Shown here one piece after another: positions 1,878 through 11,959 of a DNA stretch of 14,458 nucleotides; the first letter of the stretch is position 1, and the number at the start of each line of letters is the position of its first letter. The DNA comes from Litoreibacter sp. GTDB lineage: Bacteria; Pseudomonadota; Alphaproteobacteria; Rhodobacterales; Rhodobacteraceae. The translations under genes were made by a program, and so were the position numbers. Location: NCBI GenBank assembly GCA_013042765.1, contig JABDPP010000340.1:1-14458 (forward strand), read 5' to 3'. The notes under the pieces are model-generated. The model did no database searches. It saw nothing but the letters and a program-made list of their open reading frames with translations, and was not told the DNA's origin.

Positions 1878-3125
1878 ATGAGCAGCTTTGAAAATTCCGC
1901 CCGCATGGCGACTGAGAAGATGCGTGCGCTGTTCCCGCCGACGCCATTGCAACGCAATGATTATCTCTCGGAGCTCTACGAGGCAGAAATCTATCTCAAG
2001 CGCGAAGACCTCTCGCCAGTGCGCTCCTACAAGATCCGCGGAGCGTTCAATGCGATGCGCAAGATCCGCGAGACAAAGCCCAACCAGCGCAACTTTGTTT
2101 GCGCGAGCGCCGGCAACCACGCCCAGGGTTTTGCCTATGCATGCCGGCATTTTGACGTACAGGGCGAGATCTTCATGCCAGTTACGACCCCGAAACAGAA
2201 GATCGACAAAACCCGGACATTCGGCGGCGAGAACATCAAGATCCGCCTGACAGGGGACTATTTCGACCAGACGCTGGCCTCAGCCCAAAGCCATTGTCTG
2301 GAAATCGGTGCGCATTTTCTGGCGCCGTTCGATGACCCTGATGTCATCGAGGGGCAGGCATCCGTGGCGGTCGAAATCCTCGATGAACTGCAGACCCCAC
2401 CCGACATAATCGTGCTGCCTGTGGGCGGCGGCGGCCTGTCAGCAGGCGTCACCCGCTATTTCTCGGAGGCCGCTCCGGACACCTCATTCCGGTATATTGA
2501 GCCCGAAGGGGGAGCGAGCCTTACTGCGGCCCTCAAAGCAGGGGAGCCCGTGACGCTGAACCACGTGGATTCCTTCGTCGATGGTGCGGCGGTCGCGCGT
2601 ATAGGCGATCACACCTTCGCTTCTTTGAAAAACATCAATCCCGGCCATGTTCTGACCGCGCCTGAGAACCGTATTTGTGCGACGATGACCAGCTTGCTGA
2701 ACCATGAAGGGATCGTGCTGGAACCGGCGGGGGCACTGGTTCTCGACTCTCTTGATGATCTTGCAGACGAGATCAGGGGGCAGACGGTCGTCTGCGTGAC
2801 CTCCGGCGGCAATTTCGATTTCGAACGCCTGCCCGAGGTCAAGGAGCGCGCGCTGCGCTATTCCGGTGTGAAAAAATACTTCATTCTGCGCATGCCGCAA
2901 CGGCCCGGTGCCTTGAAGGACTTTCTGTCCCTGCTTGGACCGGATGATGATATCGCGCGTTTCGAGTATCTGAAGAAATCCGCGCGCAATTTCGGATCGG
3001 TGCTTATCGGGATCGAAACCAAGAAAGCTGAGTCTTTCGAGACATTATTCAAACGAATGACCGAGGCCGGTTTCGAATTTCGCGATATCACCGATGATGC
3101 CGTTCTGGCCGAATTCCTGATCTAG
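1878..3125 (+). CDS. ilvA: Threonine dehydratase (threonine ammonia-lyase), PLP-dependent
   Basis: Deaminates threonine to 2-oxobutanoate, the entry step of isoleucine synthesis. The 415-aa protein has the PLP-lysine motif SYKIRGAFN (Lys52), the SAGNHAQGFA segment that helps hold substrate and cofactor, and the glycine-rich phosphate-binding loop GGGGLSAG (residues 183-190). The last 80 or so residues (from KKYFILRMPQRPG) form one ACT-like regulatory domain, so isoleucine feedback is plausible. This is the shorter one-domain form rather than the two-domain form of about 514 aa in E. coli. The start at 1878 gives the usual family N-terminus (MRALFPPTPLQ follows closely) but has no clear ribosome-binding site, and the transcript may be leaderless. 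The TAG stop interlocks with the stop of the convergent HPt gene in the four bases CTAG. A catabolic threonine dehydratase is the main alternative but fits the C-terminal domain less well. Confidence 0.94.
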   Translation: MSSFENSARMATEKMRALFPPTPLQRNDYLSELYEAEIYLKREDLSPVRSYKIRGAFNAMRKIRETKPNQRNFVCASAGNHAQGFAYACRHFDVQGEIFMPVTTPKQKIDKTRTFGGENIKIRLTGDYFDQTLASAQSHCLEIGAHFLAPFDDPDVIEGQASVAVEILDELQTPPDIIVLPVGGGGLSAGVTRYFSEAAPDTSFRYIEPEGGASLTAALKAGEPVTLNHVDSFVDGAAVARIGDHTFASLKNINPGHVLTAPENRICATMTSLLNHEGIVLEPAGALVLDSLDDLADEIRGQTVVCVTSGGNFDFERLPEVKERALRYSGVKKYFILRMPQRPGALKDFLSLLGPDDDIARFEYLKKSARNFGSVLIGIETKKAESFETLFKRMTEAGFEFRDITDDAVLAEFLI

Positions 3126-3439
3126 ATCCCCGGCCCCTTCTGTGCGCAGCAGGCTAGAAACTCCGACTTCGAGGATTCATACACACGCCTCAGATCCACC
3201 AGATCCACCGCGCTCGGATCACTTTCCAGCCTGCTGCAAGTTGCCTTGAACGTGTCGAAACCAAGATTCGCCGCGCTGCCTTTCAGGAAATGAAGATCTT
3301 CCTTGAGTTTCGCGACATCATCCCGGTGCAGAGAGCTCAGCCGCTCTTCGACTTCACTCAGAAATAACGAGATGATTTCGTTGAAATCGTCGTCACCAAA
3401 GTCGGATCTGAGTTCCCCAATCCGCACCCAATTCACCAT
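3122..3439 (-). CDS. HPt (histidine phosphotransfer) domain protein
   Basis: A 105-aa protein that is essentially one HPt domain. His50 in HFLKGSAANLGF is the expected phospho-accepting histidine, matching the HxLKGxAxxxG signature, and helical segments lie on either side. Such proteins carry phosphate between a hybrid kinase and a response regulator, but no kinase is present in the window. The ATG at 3439 has GGAG six bases upstream. The gene diverges from the receiver-phosphatase gene at 3577, which is the obvious candidate partner and probably shares the 137-bp control region. Its TAG stop lies inside the same CTAG as the ilvA stop, a 4-bp convergent overlap. Domain assignment is firm from the motif; partnership is inferred from position. 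Confidence 0.85.
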   Translation of the reverse strand: MVNWVRIGELRSDFGDDDFNEIISLFLSEVEERLSSLHRDDVAKLKEDLHFLKGSAANLGFDTFKATCSRLESDPSAVDLVDLRRVYESSKSEFLACCAQKGPGI

Positions 3440-3576: not shown

Positions 3577-4737
3577 ATGGAGGACTTCGGATCAGACCAT
3601 GACGCGACAACTGACTCCCAGATCGGGTGCGTCTCTGAAACCAGATCTCCGACAATCCTGATCGCGGATGACAGTCGTCTCCAGCGCAAGCTTCTGACCA
3701 CATCCCTTAAGAAATGGGGATACAAGGTGATGGAAGCCGGATCAGGTCGCGAAGCGCTCGCGCTGGCAAAGGAGAATGACATCTCGCTAGTCATCAGCGA
3801 CTGGATGATGCCAGGCATGAGCGGCCCGGAGTTTTGCCGGGCTTTTCGTAACCTTGATCGCAGGGGCTACGGCTACTTCGTACTTCTAACAAGCAAGGGA
3901 GAAAGTCAGGAAATCGCGGAGGGGCTGAACTCCGGGGCAGATGATTTTCTGACCAAACCCGTCAATCTCGGGGAGTTGAAGGCCCGGCTGCGCGCTGGCG
4001 AGCGGATTGTGAAAATGCAGGCCCAGCTCGTGGACCAAAACCGGACCGTGAACGAGGCTTTGGACAAGATCCAGATGCTGTATGCAAGCCTCGATCGAGA
4101 TCTAGAGGAGGCAAAAAAGCTTCAGCAGTCACTCCTGCGCGAAACCCATGTCGAGTTTGATCAGGCGTCTGCGTCCTTTCTCCTGCAGCCCAGCGGCCAC
4201 GTCGGAGGGGATCTGGTCGGATACTTCAGACCGAACTCCAGTTCGATCGGCCTTTATTCGCTGGATGTGTCCGGACATGGGGTGACCTCCGCTCTGATGA
4301 CAGCACGCCTTGCGGGACACCTGAGCGGTCGCACGCCAAACCAAAATCTCGCCATTCGAGCCAGTGCAAAGGGCGACCCTGTTGCCCGCGATCCCGCAGA
4401 GACCGCCGCGCTTCTGAACAATCTCCTGCTCGACGAATTTCAGACAGACCATTACTTCACGCTCGCCTTGTGCATTCTGGATTTGCACACAGGGAAAGGT
4501 CGTTTCGTGCAAGCCGGCCATCCGCATCCCCTCCTGAAAAGACCCGGCGCTTTTCCCCGACCCCTCGGCTCCGGCGGGCTGCCCATCGGGCTGGTCGACG
4601 ATCCCGCCCATGAAAGCGTCGAAATACAGATGGAACCGGGCGACCGCCTCCTACTTCATTCGGACGGGATTACCGAGTGCGAAACGGAAGCGGGCACCTT
4701 TTTCGAGGAGGACGGGCTCGCGACTTACCTTGAATAG
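3577..4737 (+). CDS. Receiver-PP2C (SpoIIE/RsbU-type) phosphatase, cut short by an in-frame TAG
   Basis: Residues 25-130 form a response-regulator receiver: acidic pair Asp31/Asp32, phospho-acceptor Asp75 in SDWMMPG, Thr105 and Lys127. Residues about 131-185 are a charged helical linker, likely coiled coil. From about 190 comes a PP2C/SpoIIE phosphatase domain with metal-site motifs GGDLVGYF (Asp212), DVSGHG (Asp230) and HSDGITE (Asp363). The product stops at 386 aa with TAG at 4735-4737, yet the same frame continues 45 codons to TAA at 4873 and encodes the missing end, including FEDDVSALVFDY. Proteins of this kind usually dephosphorylate an anti-anti-sigma factor in a partner switch; the domain order resembles Rhodobacter RbaY as I recall it. 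ATG 3577 is the only start in frame after a TAA at 3550-3552, and its ribosome-binding site is weak. As read, the enzyme lacks its last metal-binding aspartates and may be inactive unless the TAG is an error or is read through. Confidence 0.88.
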   Translation: MEDFGSDHDATTDSQIGCVSETRSPTILIADDSRLQRKLLTTSLKKWGYKVMEAGSGREALALAKENDISLVISDWMMPGMSGPEFCRAFRNLDRRGYGYFVLLTSKGESQEIAEGLNSGADDFLTKPVNLGELKARLRAGERIVKMQAQLVDQNRTVNEALDKIQMLYASLDRDLEEAKKLQQSLLRETHVEFDQASASFLLQPSGHVGGDLVGYFRPNSSSIGLYSLDVSGHGVTSALMTARLAGHLSGRTPNQNLAIRASAKGDPVARDPAETAALLNNLLLDEFQTDHYFTLALCILDLHTGKGRFVQAGHPHPLLKRPGAFPRPLGSGGLPIGLVDDPAHESVEIQMEPGDRLLLHSDGITECETEAGTFFEEDGLATYLE

Positions 4738-4875
4738 AGTTGCTGTCAAAACGGCCCGGACACTCTGACCGGCCTCGTCGAACACCTCCAGAACTTCAGC
4801 GGAAAGCCCGGCTTCGAGGATGACGTCTCCGCGCTTGTATTCGACTATCACGGCCCTCCAACCAATCAGAAATAA
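4738..4875 (+). pseudogene. Detached C-terminal end of the PP2C phosphatase, same frame after the TAG
   Basis: Directly after the TAG at 4735-4737 the same reading frame runs 45 more codons to TAA (4873-4875). It reads SCCQNGPDTLTGLVEHLQNF, then a stretch with FEDDVSALVFDY. This is the expected last helix and last beta-strand of a SpoIIE-type phosphatase; the Asp pair (residues 415-416 if the TAG counts as residue 387) is the family's final conserved metal-ligand motif. No frameshift is needed to join the parts; one base change in the TAG would restore a 432-aa protein. The last 10 bases overlap the end of the convergent Nudix gene. There is no start codon or ribosome-binding site of its own. 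Confidence 0.85.
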
Positions 4876-5312
4876 TGCCGCGACCAACTCCCGAGAAAAT
4901 CGCGATCACCGGTATTCGCCAACAGCTCCATCGCCTCATCCAATGACAGCCAGACCGCAGTGTGCCCGTCCTCCGGCGGTGGCCCGCGTCGCAGCACCGG
5001 ACGCGCGACATATATCTGGCAAAGCTTCTCCGCCCAGAGATCGTATTCCGGCATGTAGGTGAACCGCCTGTAGGCCCCAAGGCGACGCGGGCTGGAAATG
5101 GCCCAGCCGGTTTCTTCGTAAACCTCACGATGCAATGCATTCACCGGGTTTTCCCCCGGATCGATTCCACCGCCGGGCAACTGAAACTCGGGATTGGGCT
5201 TTTCCTGAAACGTGGTGAGTACGCCCGCGCCATCAGACAGGATCGCGTAGCATCCCGGTCGCAGCCGATAGGTTTTCCCGTGCCGAACCGCTTCCCCGTA
5301 ACGTCTGATCAT
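4866..5312 (-). CDS. Nudix hydrolase
   Basis: A 148-aa single-domain Nudix protein. The Nudix box is complete: Gly48, Glu54, then REVYEETGW at residues 62-70, matching GX5EX7REUXEEXGU, so the metal-binding and catalytic residues are present. These enzymes cleave a nucleoside diphosphate joined to another group; the substrate (damaged NTP, ADP-sugar, dinucleoside polyphosphate or other) cannot be read from the sequence. The frame is open 74 codons further upstream, but ATG 5312 is chosen because GGAG lies seven bases before it and the protein then has normal length; the longer form would run into hslO. It diverges from hslO, and a heat-shock-like promoter in the gap faces this gene too. Its 3' end overlaps the original end of the phosphatase gene by 10 bp. 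Confidence 0.88.
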   Translation of the reverse strand: MIRRYGEAVRHGKTYRLRPGCYAILSDGAGVLTTFQEKPNPEFQLPGGGIDPGENPVNALHREVYEETGWAISSPRRLGAYRRFTYMPEYDLWAEKLCQIYVARPVLRRGPPPEDGHTAVWLSLDEAMELLANTGDRDFLGSWSRHYF

Positions 5313-8265: not shown

Positions 8266-10110
8266 ATGTTCCGGTTTCTCGAAAATCTGGTCGACCCTTA
8301 CGAGGAATACCCACAGGTAGATGCGCCACCGACGCAGCTCTGGCCGTTTCTGCGCGACTATAGTCGGCCGTTCCATAAGATGTTCGTATTCACCGGGATC
8401 ATGTCGCTCGTGGTGGCGTTCGTGGAAGTGGGCCTGATCTACTATCTTGGCCGCGTGGTGGATTTTCTCGGGCGCGGTGAGCCTGCTGAGATCATCACGG
8501 AATACGGAACAGAGCTTATCCTGATCGCGGGTTTCGTGCTGATCATCCGTCCCATCCTTCAGGGGATTGATGTCGCACTCCTCAACAACGCGATCCTGCC
8601 CAATTTCGGGACGCTGTTTCGCTGGCGCGCCCACCGCCATGTGCTGCGCCAATCCGTCGGCTGGTTCGAGAATGACTTCGCCGGCCGAATTGCAAACCGG
8701 ATCATGCAAGCCCCGCCTGCCGCCGGTGAGGCGGTTTTTCAGGTCTTTGACGCCATCACCTTTTCAATAGCCTACTTCATCGGAGCCGCCATCCTGCTCA
8801 GCGAGGCCGACCCACGCCTCGCCTTGCCGCTCATGATCTGGCTGGCGCTCTATGCGTTGCTCGTGATTTGGACGATGAAGCGGGTCGGCCCCGCCTCCAA
8901 AGCCTCCTCCGATGCACGGTCCATGACGACCGGCCGCGTGGTCGACAGCTATACCAATATCCATTCCGTCAAGTTGTTTGCCCACCATGATCACGAAATC
9001 AACTTCGCAAAGGAAGCGATCGAGACGACCCGGCAGACCTTCGCGCGGGAGATGCGAATATTCACGCTGATGGATGTCATGCTCGTGACGCTCAATGGAT
9101 TCCTGATCGTCGCAGTCGTCGGATGGGCGATCTGGCTATGGGCGCAAGGCACGGCCTCGGTTGGTGTAATCGCGGCGGCCGCTGCCCTGACCCTGCGTTT
9201 GAACGCGATGACCGGCTGGATCATGTGGGCCGTATCGAGCTTTTTCCGTTCTCTCGGTGTCGTGGCAGAGGGAATGGAGACGATTGCCCAGCCAATCACC
9301 CTCCTCGACCAACCCGATGCAAAGCCCTTGAGGTTGGATGAAGGAAGGATCCAGATCGAAGGCCTCAGCCACCATTACGGCCGCGATGCTGGCGGCCTCG
9401 TCGATATCAACCTGACCATCAATCCCGGAGAGAAGATTGGCTTGGTTGGCCGCTCGGGCGCCGGCAAATCGACCTTGGTGAAGCTGCTGCTGCGCTTTTA
9501 CGATGCAGATGCCGGACGTATCCTCATTGACGGTCAGGATATCGCACATGTCTCTCAGGACAGCTTGCGCGCGCATATCGGGATGGTTTCGCAGGACAGC
9601 GCGCTCATGCACCGCTCGGTGCGGGACAATATCCTGTACGGCCGCCCCGACGCGAGCGAGGCCGAGATGATTGAGGCGGCCAAGCGCGCCGAGGCCCACG
9701 AGTTCATCCTTGATCTGGAAGATCCAACCGGCCGCACGGGGTACGATGCCCACGTCGGCGAACGCGGGGTCAAACTGAGTGGCGGGCAGCGCCAGCGCAT
9801 CTCTCTTGCGCGGGTCATTCTGAAAGACGCCCCAATCCTGGTATTGGACGAAGCGACAAGCGCCTTGGACAGCGAAGTTGAAGCCGCGATCCAGGAAACG
9901 CTCTACGGCGTGATGGAGGGAAAAACCGTTATCGCGATTGCTCATCGGCTCAGCACGATTGCTCATCTCGATCGAATTATCGTTTTGGACGACGGCATCA
10001 TCACCGAGGACGGATCCCACGACGAGCTTTTGGCGAAAAATAGTCTATATGCTGGGTTCTGGGGTCGCCAGTCGGGCGGTTTCCTCAACACCACACGAGC
10101 CGCCGAGTGA
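8266..10110 (+). CDS. ABC exporter half-transporter (membrane domain plus ATPase), first of a tandem pair
   Basis: A 614-aa type IV-fold ABC exporter half. Residues about 35-330 form the six-helix membrane domain; about 350-614 are the ATPase with Walker A GRSGAGKST (395-403), signature LSGGQ (504-508), Walker B with Asp528 and catalytic Glu529, and switch His560. All catalytic residues are present. Substrate is unknown; lipid-, drug- or peptide-type export is possible. The next gene encodes a paralogue of exactly the same length, four bases downstream, so a heterodimer is likely. AAAGG lies eight bases before ATG 8266. The 121-bp gap upstream is AT-rich near 8210-8240 and holds TTGAAA at 8219-8224, but no convincing -10 goes with it. 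It starts a run of four same-strand genes. Confidence 0.93.
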   Translation: MFRFLENLVDPYEEYPQVDAPPTQLWPFLRDYSRPFHKMFVFTGIMSLVVAFVEVGLIYYLGRVVDFLGRGEPAEIITEYGTELILIAGFVLIIRPILQGIDVALLNNAILPNFGTLFRWRAHRHVLRQSVGWFENDFAGRIANRIMQAPPAAGEAVFQVFDAITFSIAYFIGAAILLSEADPRLALPLMIWLALYALLVIWTMKRVGPASKASSDARSMTTGRVVDSYTNIHSVKLFAHHDHEINFAKEAIETTRQTFAREMRIFTLMDVMLVTLNGFLIVAVVGWAIWLWAQGTASVGVIAAAAALTLRLNAMTGWIMWAVSSFFRSLGVVAEGMETIAQPITLLDQPDAKPLRLDEGRIQIEGLSHHYGRDAGGLVDINLTINPGEKIGLVGRSGAGKSTLVKLLLRFYDADAGRILIDGQDIAHVSQDSLRAHIGMVSQDSALMHRSVRDNILYGRPDASEAEMIEAAKRAEAHEFILDLEDPTGRTGYDAHVGERGVKLSGGQRQRISLARVILKDAPILVLDEATSALDSEVEAAIQETLYGVMEGKTVIAIAHRLSTIAHLDRIIVLDDGIITEDGSHDELLAKNSLYAGFWGRQSGGFLNTTRAAE

Positions 10111-10114
10111 GATC

Positions 10115-11959
10115 ATGAGCCGGGTTAGCAAAATCGGAAACCTGATCGATGCCTTCCGGCCCGCGGAAGGCCCGCCGCCGCGCACGCTCGCGGCGTTCTT
10201 CCGCTGGGCCTTGTCAGGCGCCTGGCCGGTTCTGTTCGGCGCCTCTCTCGTCTCTGCGGCCGCAGGCTCGCTCGAAGTGTTCACCGCGCTCCTGCTTGGC
10301 GTTGTCGTTGACACGGCTCTGCAATCCGGGCCCGTTGGTTTTTTCCGTGAGCACTGGCTTCTGCTTCTGGCGTTCGCAGCGTTCTTCCTCCTGCTGCGTC
10401 CCGCTGTCTTCGGGATGTCATCGGCTGCGAACTCGGTCGTGGTCGGGCCAAACGTGAACCCTTTGGTGCTGTCGCGCCTGCATCGCTGGACCATGGGGCA
10501 GGCGGTTACCTTCTTCGATGACGACTTCGCGGGCCGGATTGCCCAGAAACAGATGCAAACCGCGCGGGCCGTTACCGATGTCGCGGTTGAGACAATCAAC
10601 GTGGTGGCCTTCGCTCTTGCCTCCCTTGTGGGCTCAGTTCTCTTGCTAACAGCGATCGACTACCGGGTTGCGCTGGTACTCGCGGTCTGGTTGGCGGGCT
10701 ACCTTGCGCTCATACGCTGGTTCATGCCCCGCATCAGGGTTCATTCCGCCGGGAGGGCCGGTGCGCGGGCCATGGTCTCCGGCCAAGTTGTGGACACGAT
10801 TACGAATATCAAGACCGTGAAACTTTTTGCCCATGCCAAGCATGAGGACCAGGAAGCCCTGTCAGCCATGCAGGTTTTTCGCGACAAGTCGCTTGGGTTC
10901 GGGGAGGTCTCGGCCTGGTTCCGCTTCACCCTGATGACGCTTTCCGGCCTGCTCCCGGTTGCCCTCGTTGGCGGAACGCTTGTGCTTTGGTCTTACGGGG
11001 TCGCCTCCCCCGGTGACATCGTCGCAACCGGCGCGGTTTCGATCCGCATCGCCCAGATGACGGGCTGGGTCAGTTTCACACTGATGACGATCTATTCTAA
11101 CATCGGCGAGGTCGAAGACGGGATCCGGACGCTCACCCCGCCGCACACATTGGTCGACGCGCCGGGCGCATCCAGCCTGTCGGTACCTCAGGGAGAAATC
11201 GCGCTGGATCATGTGAGCTTTTCCTATGGCCGGAAGACCGGCGGAGTTTCCGACGTCTCTCTGGAAGTAAAGCCCGGTGAGAAGCTCGGAGTTGTCGGCG
11301 CATCCGGTGCGGGCAAGTCGACGCTGGTGGCGCTGTTGCTCAGGCTCTACGATCCGGAACAGGGGCGCGTGCTGATCGACGGTCAGGATATCGCGAAAGT
11401 GACGCAGGAAAGCCTGCGCCGGCAGATCGGGATGGTCACGCAGGAAACGGCCATGTTCAACCGGCCGGCGCGCGACAATATTCTCTACGGCAATCCGAAC
11501 GCCACCGAGGAAGACATCCGGGAAGCTGCGCGAAAGGCTGAAGCGGATGCGTTCATCGGAGATTTGGAGGATTTCGCGGGACGGACGGGATACGATGCCC
11601 ACCTGGGCGAACGCGGTGTCAAACTGTCAGGCGGTCAACGCCAACGGATCGCAATCGCGCGTGCGATGCTGAAAGACGCACCAATCCTGATCCTCGACGA
11701 GGCGACAAGCGCGCTCGACAGCGAGGTTGAAGCCTCCATTCAACTCGCGCTGGAGCATGCAATGAAAGACAAGACGGTGATTGCCATCGCGCATCGGTTG
11801 TCCACGATCGCGCGGATGGACCGGATCGTGGTCCTCGACCAAGGCCGGATTGTCGAGGAAGGCACCCATGCCGACTTGCTCGCTGCGGGTGGGCTCTATG
11901 CCGGCTACTGGCACCGCCAATCGGGTGGGTTTATCGGCATCGCGGAAGCAGCGGAATAG
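10115..11959 (+). CDS. ABC exporter half-transporter, second of a tandem pair
   Basis: A 614-aa paralogue of the preceding protein with the same plan: N-terminal six-helix membrane domain, then an ATPase with Walker A GASGAGKST (395-403), LSGGQ (504-508), Asp528/Glu529 and His560. These residue numbers are identical to those of the neighbour, so the ATPase domains align without gaps. Shared stretches in the membrane domain, such as DFAGRIA and TNI..VKLFAH, support a tandem duplication. Both ATP sites of a heterodimer would be catalytic, unlike exporters with one degenerate site. The frame is open back to 9938, but that would overlap the first gene by 170 bp; ATG 10115 sits four bases after its stop with GAG-rich sequence upstream. 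Substrate unknown. Confidence 0.93.
   Translation: MSRVSKIGNLIDAFRPAEGPPPRTLAAFFRWALSGAWPVLFGASLVSAAAGSLEVFTALLLGVVVDTALQSGPVGFFREHWLLLLAFAAFFLLLRPAVFGMSSAANSVVVGPNVNPLVLSRLHRWTMGQAVTFFDDDFAGRIAQKQMQTARAVTDVAVETINVVAFALASLVGSVLLLTAIDYRVALVLAVWLAGYLALIRWFMPRIRVHSAGRAGARAMVSGQVVDTITNIKTVKLFAHAKHEDQEALSAMQVFRDKSLGFGEVSAWFRFTLMTLSGLLPVALVGGTLVLWSYGVASPGDIVATGAVSIRIAQMTGWVSFTLMTIYSNIGEVEDGIRTLTPPHTLVDAPGASSLSVPQGEIALDHVSFSYGRKTGGVSDVSLEVKPGEKLGVVGASGAGKSTLVALLLRLYDPEQGRVLIDGQDIAKVTQESLRRQIGMVTQETAMFNRPARDNILYGNPNATEEDIREAARKAEADAFIGDLEDFAGRTGYDAHLGERGVKLSGGQRQRIAIARAMLKDAPILILDEATSALDSEVEASIQLALEHAMKDKTVIAIAHRLSTIARMDRIVVLDQGRIVEEGTHADLLAAGGLYAGYWHRQSGGFIGIAEAAE

Follow-up and report, generated by a model that had tools for sequence, protein, structure and literature searches.

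An in-frame TAG cuts the last helix and strand off an RbaY-type phosphatase gene in a Litoreibacter draft genome, as a recent lesion or an assembly error

The stretch of DNA analysed here (the window, 14,458 nucleotides) is one entire contig of a draft genome of Litoreibacter sp. (449 contigs with a total of 2.60 Mb; completeness 79.85%), a bacterium that is probably marine. It carries a gene for a phosphatase with a receiver domain and a SpoIIE/PP2C domain, which is flanked by a divergent Hpt-domain gene and a convergent NUDIX gene (Table 1). The gene order ilvA(+) hpt(-) phosphatase(+) nudix(-) hsp33(+) is found unchanged in 62 of the 80 named loci and is matched by the window, which is also collinear with three genus genomes. 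The Hpt gene is a candidate phosphodonor for the receiver of the phosphatase. Elsewhere in the window (8266-11959, plus strand), two adjacent genes of ~614 aa each contain an ABC ATPase domain; as judged from proteins of the three genus genomes, in which their order is conserved, they are 46-47% alike across the pair. Among the matches listed, another genus genome has an ABC ATPase match that contains a TAG and lies near a contig end (G005:C147:73-519, minus strand).

Table 1. Features of the phosphatase locus and of the putative partner genes elsewhere in the source genome
Feature	Position	Strand	Remarks
Hpt-domain gene, divergent	3122..3439	-	PF01627; adjoins the phosphatase in 80/80 named loci
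Receiver-PP2C (RbaY-like) phosphatase ORF	3577..4737	+	386 aa, ends in TAG; Pfam Response_reg and SpoIIE
Receiver domain, residues 27-138	3655..3990	+	PF00072, E 3.5e-26
SpoIIE/PP2C domain, front part, residues 223-385	4243..4731	+	PF07228, E 1.4e-33; profile positions 4-153 of 192
In-frame TAG, codon 387 of the phosphatase	4735..4737	+	absent from 20 other genus genomes and 100 relative loci (overlapping sets)
AGT-TGC-TGT (Ser-Cys-Cys), three codons after TAG	4738..4746	+	least likely triple by codon usage; possibly part of the lesion
Phosphatase remainder, 45 codons (last helix and last strand)	4738..4872	+	natural TAA at 4873-4875
Asp415 codon, missing from the 386-aa form	4819..4821	+	putative positional counterpart of SpoIIE Asp795
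NUDIX gene, convergent	4866..5312	-	its end overlaps the end of the phosphatase tail by 10 bases
STAS gene (RbaV-like), contig C90	L136:1937-2299	-	unbroken; overlaps the HATPase gene
HATPase gene (RbaW-like), contig C90	L136:1465-1971	-	unbroken

The initial annotation of the window had described a partner-switch phosphatase with receiver and PP2C domains whose frame stops at a TAG and resumes at once, with 45 further residues before a TAA. Its coordinates and its peptide are correct, and Pfam recognizes both domains. The remainder behind the stop contains FEDDVSALVFDY, and the gene would comprise 432 codons if it were read through the TAG to the natural TAA. Within the ORF the PP2C domain is incomplete and lacks its last predicted metal-binding Asp; the remainder of the domain follows behind the TAG. 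In a search of the genome the SpoIIE profile match spans the stop and reaches from position 4 to 191 of 192, compared with 4-153 for the ORF alone. The distance from the SDG motif to the DDVS motif is 57 codons in the window gene and the same in 45 of the 48 relative loci that could be parsed (52 of 100 misfit the search motif and were left out). DDVS thus lies behind the TAG at the spacing of the family, and the stop does take away the last conserved motif, as had been proposed. Ten columns of the tail reach a conservation of 70% or more among 119 relatives, and in all of them the window gene has the commonest residue. Judged from these sequence comparisons, the match of the post-stop frame to the family end is more than chance.

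What would the cut remove from the protein? Of 7999 candidates scored, the closest protein, P0001, has 432 aa and is 82% identical; a same-species protein was not among these candidates, and the set of named loci may omit the closest records. In the structure model of P0001 (pLDDT 91.0, pTM 0.74), the part missing from the 386-aa form corresponds to a helix (393-408) and a strand (417-424). Both lie within the fold that is common to Pseudomonas aeruginosa RssB, SiaA, SpoIIE and RsbX, and folds beyond these four may also match. Asp415, Asp416 and Ser418 are invariant in an alignment of 41 sequences (A2). For SpoIIE, the structural report names Asp628, Asp746 and Asp795 as manganese ligands and gives QIEDD, ending at residue 796, as the final motif (PMC3517971). 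Because QIEDD ends at 796 and the ligand is Asp795, it is the first Asp of the pair that binds the metal. By mapping through the EDD and QIEDD motifs and the fold match, we infer that residue 415 is a metal ligand. The proposed loss of a final metal-binding Asp pair therefore holds for its first member alone, the putative counterpart of the ligand. The 386-aa form would be expected to have lost its activity.

By its architecture and its partners, we assign the window gene as an RbaY-type phosphatase of the Rba partner switch. Genes resembling rbaV and rbaW are present and unbroken on another contig of the source genome (Table 1). This genome, 79.85% complete, yields one SpoIIE-type match. A second, weaker match occurs in 7 of the 20 other genus genomes, so that the missing fifth of the source genome could hold another phosphatase. 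The initial annotation had further placed the enzyme in control of a sigma-factor partner switch; the partner-switch kind stands, and the link to a sigma factor is at most presumptive, since the study of Rhodobacter capsulatus was unable to identify a sigma factor cognate to the Rba switch (PMC3999984). The same report describes rbaY mutants of R. capsulatus with less gene transfer agent and fewer viable stationary-phase cells (PMC3999984).

Is the stop shared by relatives? The phosphatase gene is present in all 21 genus genomes, the source genome included. A profile search found a stop inside the SpoIIE domain in none of the other 20. Among 100 relative loci (80 named and 20 genus loci, two collections that overlap and come partly from the same genomes), none has a stop at the position of the window TAG, and the alignments reach the DDxS motif in every one. 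Of the stops that were flagged in these 100 loci, that of L113 is a natural gene end and those of L110 and L132, which are the same genome, reflect a broken receiver; the TGA codons flagged in G006 and G011 are natural gene ends, as judged by gene lengths. A comparison of this codon in relatives hence gives no indication of a short form that is normal for the 20 genus genomes and the 100 loci, and the usual mark of a pseudogene, a lesion missing from intact relatives, is what we found in both sets. We conclude with high confidence that the TAG is a non-programmed interruption of the gene, real or artefactual.

The tail behind the stop bears on the age of such an interruption. Its residues 391-424 have a mean identity to 119 relatives of 0.386 in the window compared with 0.360 in P0001, and the conserved columns of the head show 20 departures in the window and 21 in P0001. 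Between the window and P0001, 22 of 34 tail residues (391-424) and 305 of 361 head residues are identical. The corresponding values between P0002 and P0003 are 18 of 34 and 266 of 361, and the end of the phosphatase is thus less conserved in general. Relaxed selection beyond the lesion was not seen in this comparison, neither the tail (391-424) nor the head being more diverged than that of P0001. Since the tail has not decayed more than expected, the lesion, if real, would be of recent date. The initial annotation had taken the coding quality of the tail to indicate a very recent event, a sequencing error or occasional readthrough. The ten conserved columns are in line with the first two, and the third is unsupported.

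We hold with even confidence that the stop is truly in the cell and marks a real, recent loss of function. An ordinary RbaY-type phosphatase gene would then have been hit in this one genome by a recent lesion, namely a stop at codon 387, possibly followed by a few disturbed codons, which would leave a protein of 386 aa. This protein would lack the last helix and the last strand of the PP2C fold and, with them, the last metal-binding Asp. Phosphorylated RbaV would presumably no longer be dephosphorylated, RbaW would consequently stay unopposed and the output of the Rba switch would be lowered, which in terms of R. capsulatus would concern gene transfer agent production and stationary-phase viability. 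In this chain we infer that the cell really carries the stop, that the enzyme is inactive and that this phenotype follows.

The codons directly behind the stop may belong to the same event. Judged by codon usage, AGT-TGC-TGT is more improbable than every one of the 4261 triples in 12 window ORFs, a Cys-Cys pair occurs in none of 120 relatives, and only one of 419 triples fits the family worse than residues 388-390. When read in a shifted frame, residues 387-392 outscore the gene frame by 6.4 (with the stop uncounted), a gain reached by none of 355 windows in the head. At matched columns, the window exceeds all 87 scored relative loci in misfit, in rare codon usage and in the gain from a frame shift, although the margin is not wide (for the frame-shift gain, 6.4 compared with 5.5 in the next locus); this comparison omits 13 of the 100 loci for misfit of motif or spacing, and duplicates of the same genomes remain in it. 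The test was run after the oddity had been noticed, with assumed background amino-acid frequencies and a codon table from the 12 window ORFs, the front of the phosphatase included. The atypical codons after the TAG suggest that the change may exceed a single-base amber mutation, and the disturbed stretch may comprise 4 to 6 codons rather than one base. In the 20 genus loci, the codons at and after the place of the stop vary freely. Compensating frame shifts were set aside, as no shifted reading is clearly family-like and the gain is a hint at most. A template switch was likewise rejected, since a scan of the window that allowed up to 3 mismatches gave no second copy of the 15 bases at 4734-4748. 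Between 4600 and 4900 there is no inverted repeat and a single direct repeat of 13 bases (4702-4714 and 4813-4825), which flanks the stop in the gene frame without bordering it.

Alternatively, the TAG could have arisen from an error of assembly or consensus at about 4735-4746 in a contig of low coverage that may mix strains, while the phosphatase of the cell is intact. We consider this a serious possibility, though it falls a little short of even confidence, and recent loss and assembly error are nearly tied. Many internal stops in genome assemblies are reported to be spurious, and their occurrence is linked to assembly quality (PMC11017572). The draft genome studied here is fragmented into 449 contigs. 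The odd codons described above, extreme on three measures against 87 relative loci and combined with a kept length and an intact tail, are unlike one base change in a healthy gene. In addition, the breaks of the phosphatase within the genus are confined to fragmented genomes, as errors would be: two of the four genomes with at least 160 contigs carry a broken copy, compared with none of the 17 others. The second case is that of G005 (Litoreibacter sp. isolate CAR1_bin_18; loci L110 and L132), in which the receiver is frame-shifted at a run of five G; the break lies at about 6084-6200 of L110 (plus strand), on a contig whose name states cov_15.808. Against this reading, an internal stop was found in none of 64, none of 28 and none of 22 domain matches in the source genome (0/114). 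Nor does one occur in the 11 other window genes, which the proteins of three genus genomes match to within ~20 codons of their ends. The anomaly of the odd codons, moreover, is close to the range of relatives and was put to the test only once it had been seen.

If the loss is real, could it be a recurrent one? The two breaks among the 21 genus genomes are different, a stop at the PP2C end in the window and a frame shift in the receiver in G005, and it is conceivable that RbaY-type phosphatases are lost repeatedly in wild populations of the genus while RbaV and RbaW are kept. We consider this improbable. If it were true, selection would at times favour an Rba switch that is locked off, with lowered gene transfer agent production and lowered stationary-phase programmes, like the loss of rsbU for SigB in Staphylococcus.

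Programmed or partial readthrough, in which the TAG is sometimes decoded and two forms of the phosphatase are made, would account for a frame that resumes directly with an undecayed, family-like tail. We regard it as very improbable and do not retain this part of the initial annotation. The stop is shared by no relative examined (20 genus genomes, 100 loci), and a CTA anticodon is missing from all 26 tRNAs that the incomplete genome yielded. TAG serves here as a normal terminator, closing 7 of the 13 further window ORFs that were counted as genes. RNA folding at the stop is no stronger than in shuffled sequences (z -0.11), and the free variation of the codons at and after this place likewise speaks against a programmed signal. 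A restart behind the stop was discarded as well, because 4738-4872, read by eye, holds no ATG, GTG or TTG codon. That the 386-aa form is itself functional, e.g. as an RbaV-binding or receiver-only regulator, is scarcely credible: its receiver is near-complete (Pfam positions 1-110 of 111) and its head is close to that of P0001 (305/361 residues), but it lacks the final strand together with a metal ligand that is invariant, no relative examined ends at this point, and the undecayed tail would leave little time for a new role.

Taking the recent lesion as real, the window would offer a natural null of an Rba-feeding phosphatase in a relative of Rhodobacter and would predict a low Rba output; an erroneous stop would only add to those of other draft genomes and should not be taken as biology. 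In either case, the understanding of the phosphatase family is unchanged. A limited literature search found no mention of Litoreibacter, and we make no wider claim on the gene. Among characterized proteins with the same fold, RssB of P. aeruginosa (PDB 3eq2, 3f7a) was considered and rejected, for the window protein scores 121 with the NCBIfam model compared with a cut-off of 700 and is thus not RssB. The phosphatase domain of Bacillus subtilis SpoIIE (PDB 5ucg) is joined to another regulatory region and has other partners. Closer is RbaY of R. capsulatus (rcc00181), which is reported to have the same receiver and PP2C architecture (PMC3999984). In R. capsulatus, rbaV and rbaW form an overlapping pair apart from rbaY, as in the source genome (PMC3999984). 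The likeness is one of architecture and gene arrangement; RbaY of R. capsulatus is whole, whereas the window gene breaks off at codon 387. A natural loss of a partner-switch phosphatase is itself already known from rsbU of Staphylococcus aureus, for which a deletion in 8325-4 and a stop codon in KS26 are described (PMC6748969), which lends some weight to a real lesion; the window case, if real, would be a further example. The S. aureus lesions likewise remove such a phosphatase in nature (PMC6748969), but they belong to another phylum, affect the sigB locus and were found in cultured strains, whereas the lesion in the window lies in an assembled draft genome.
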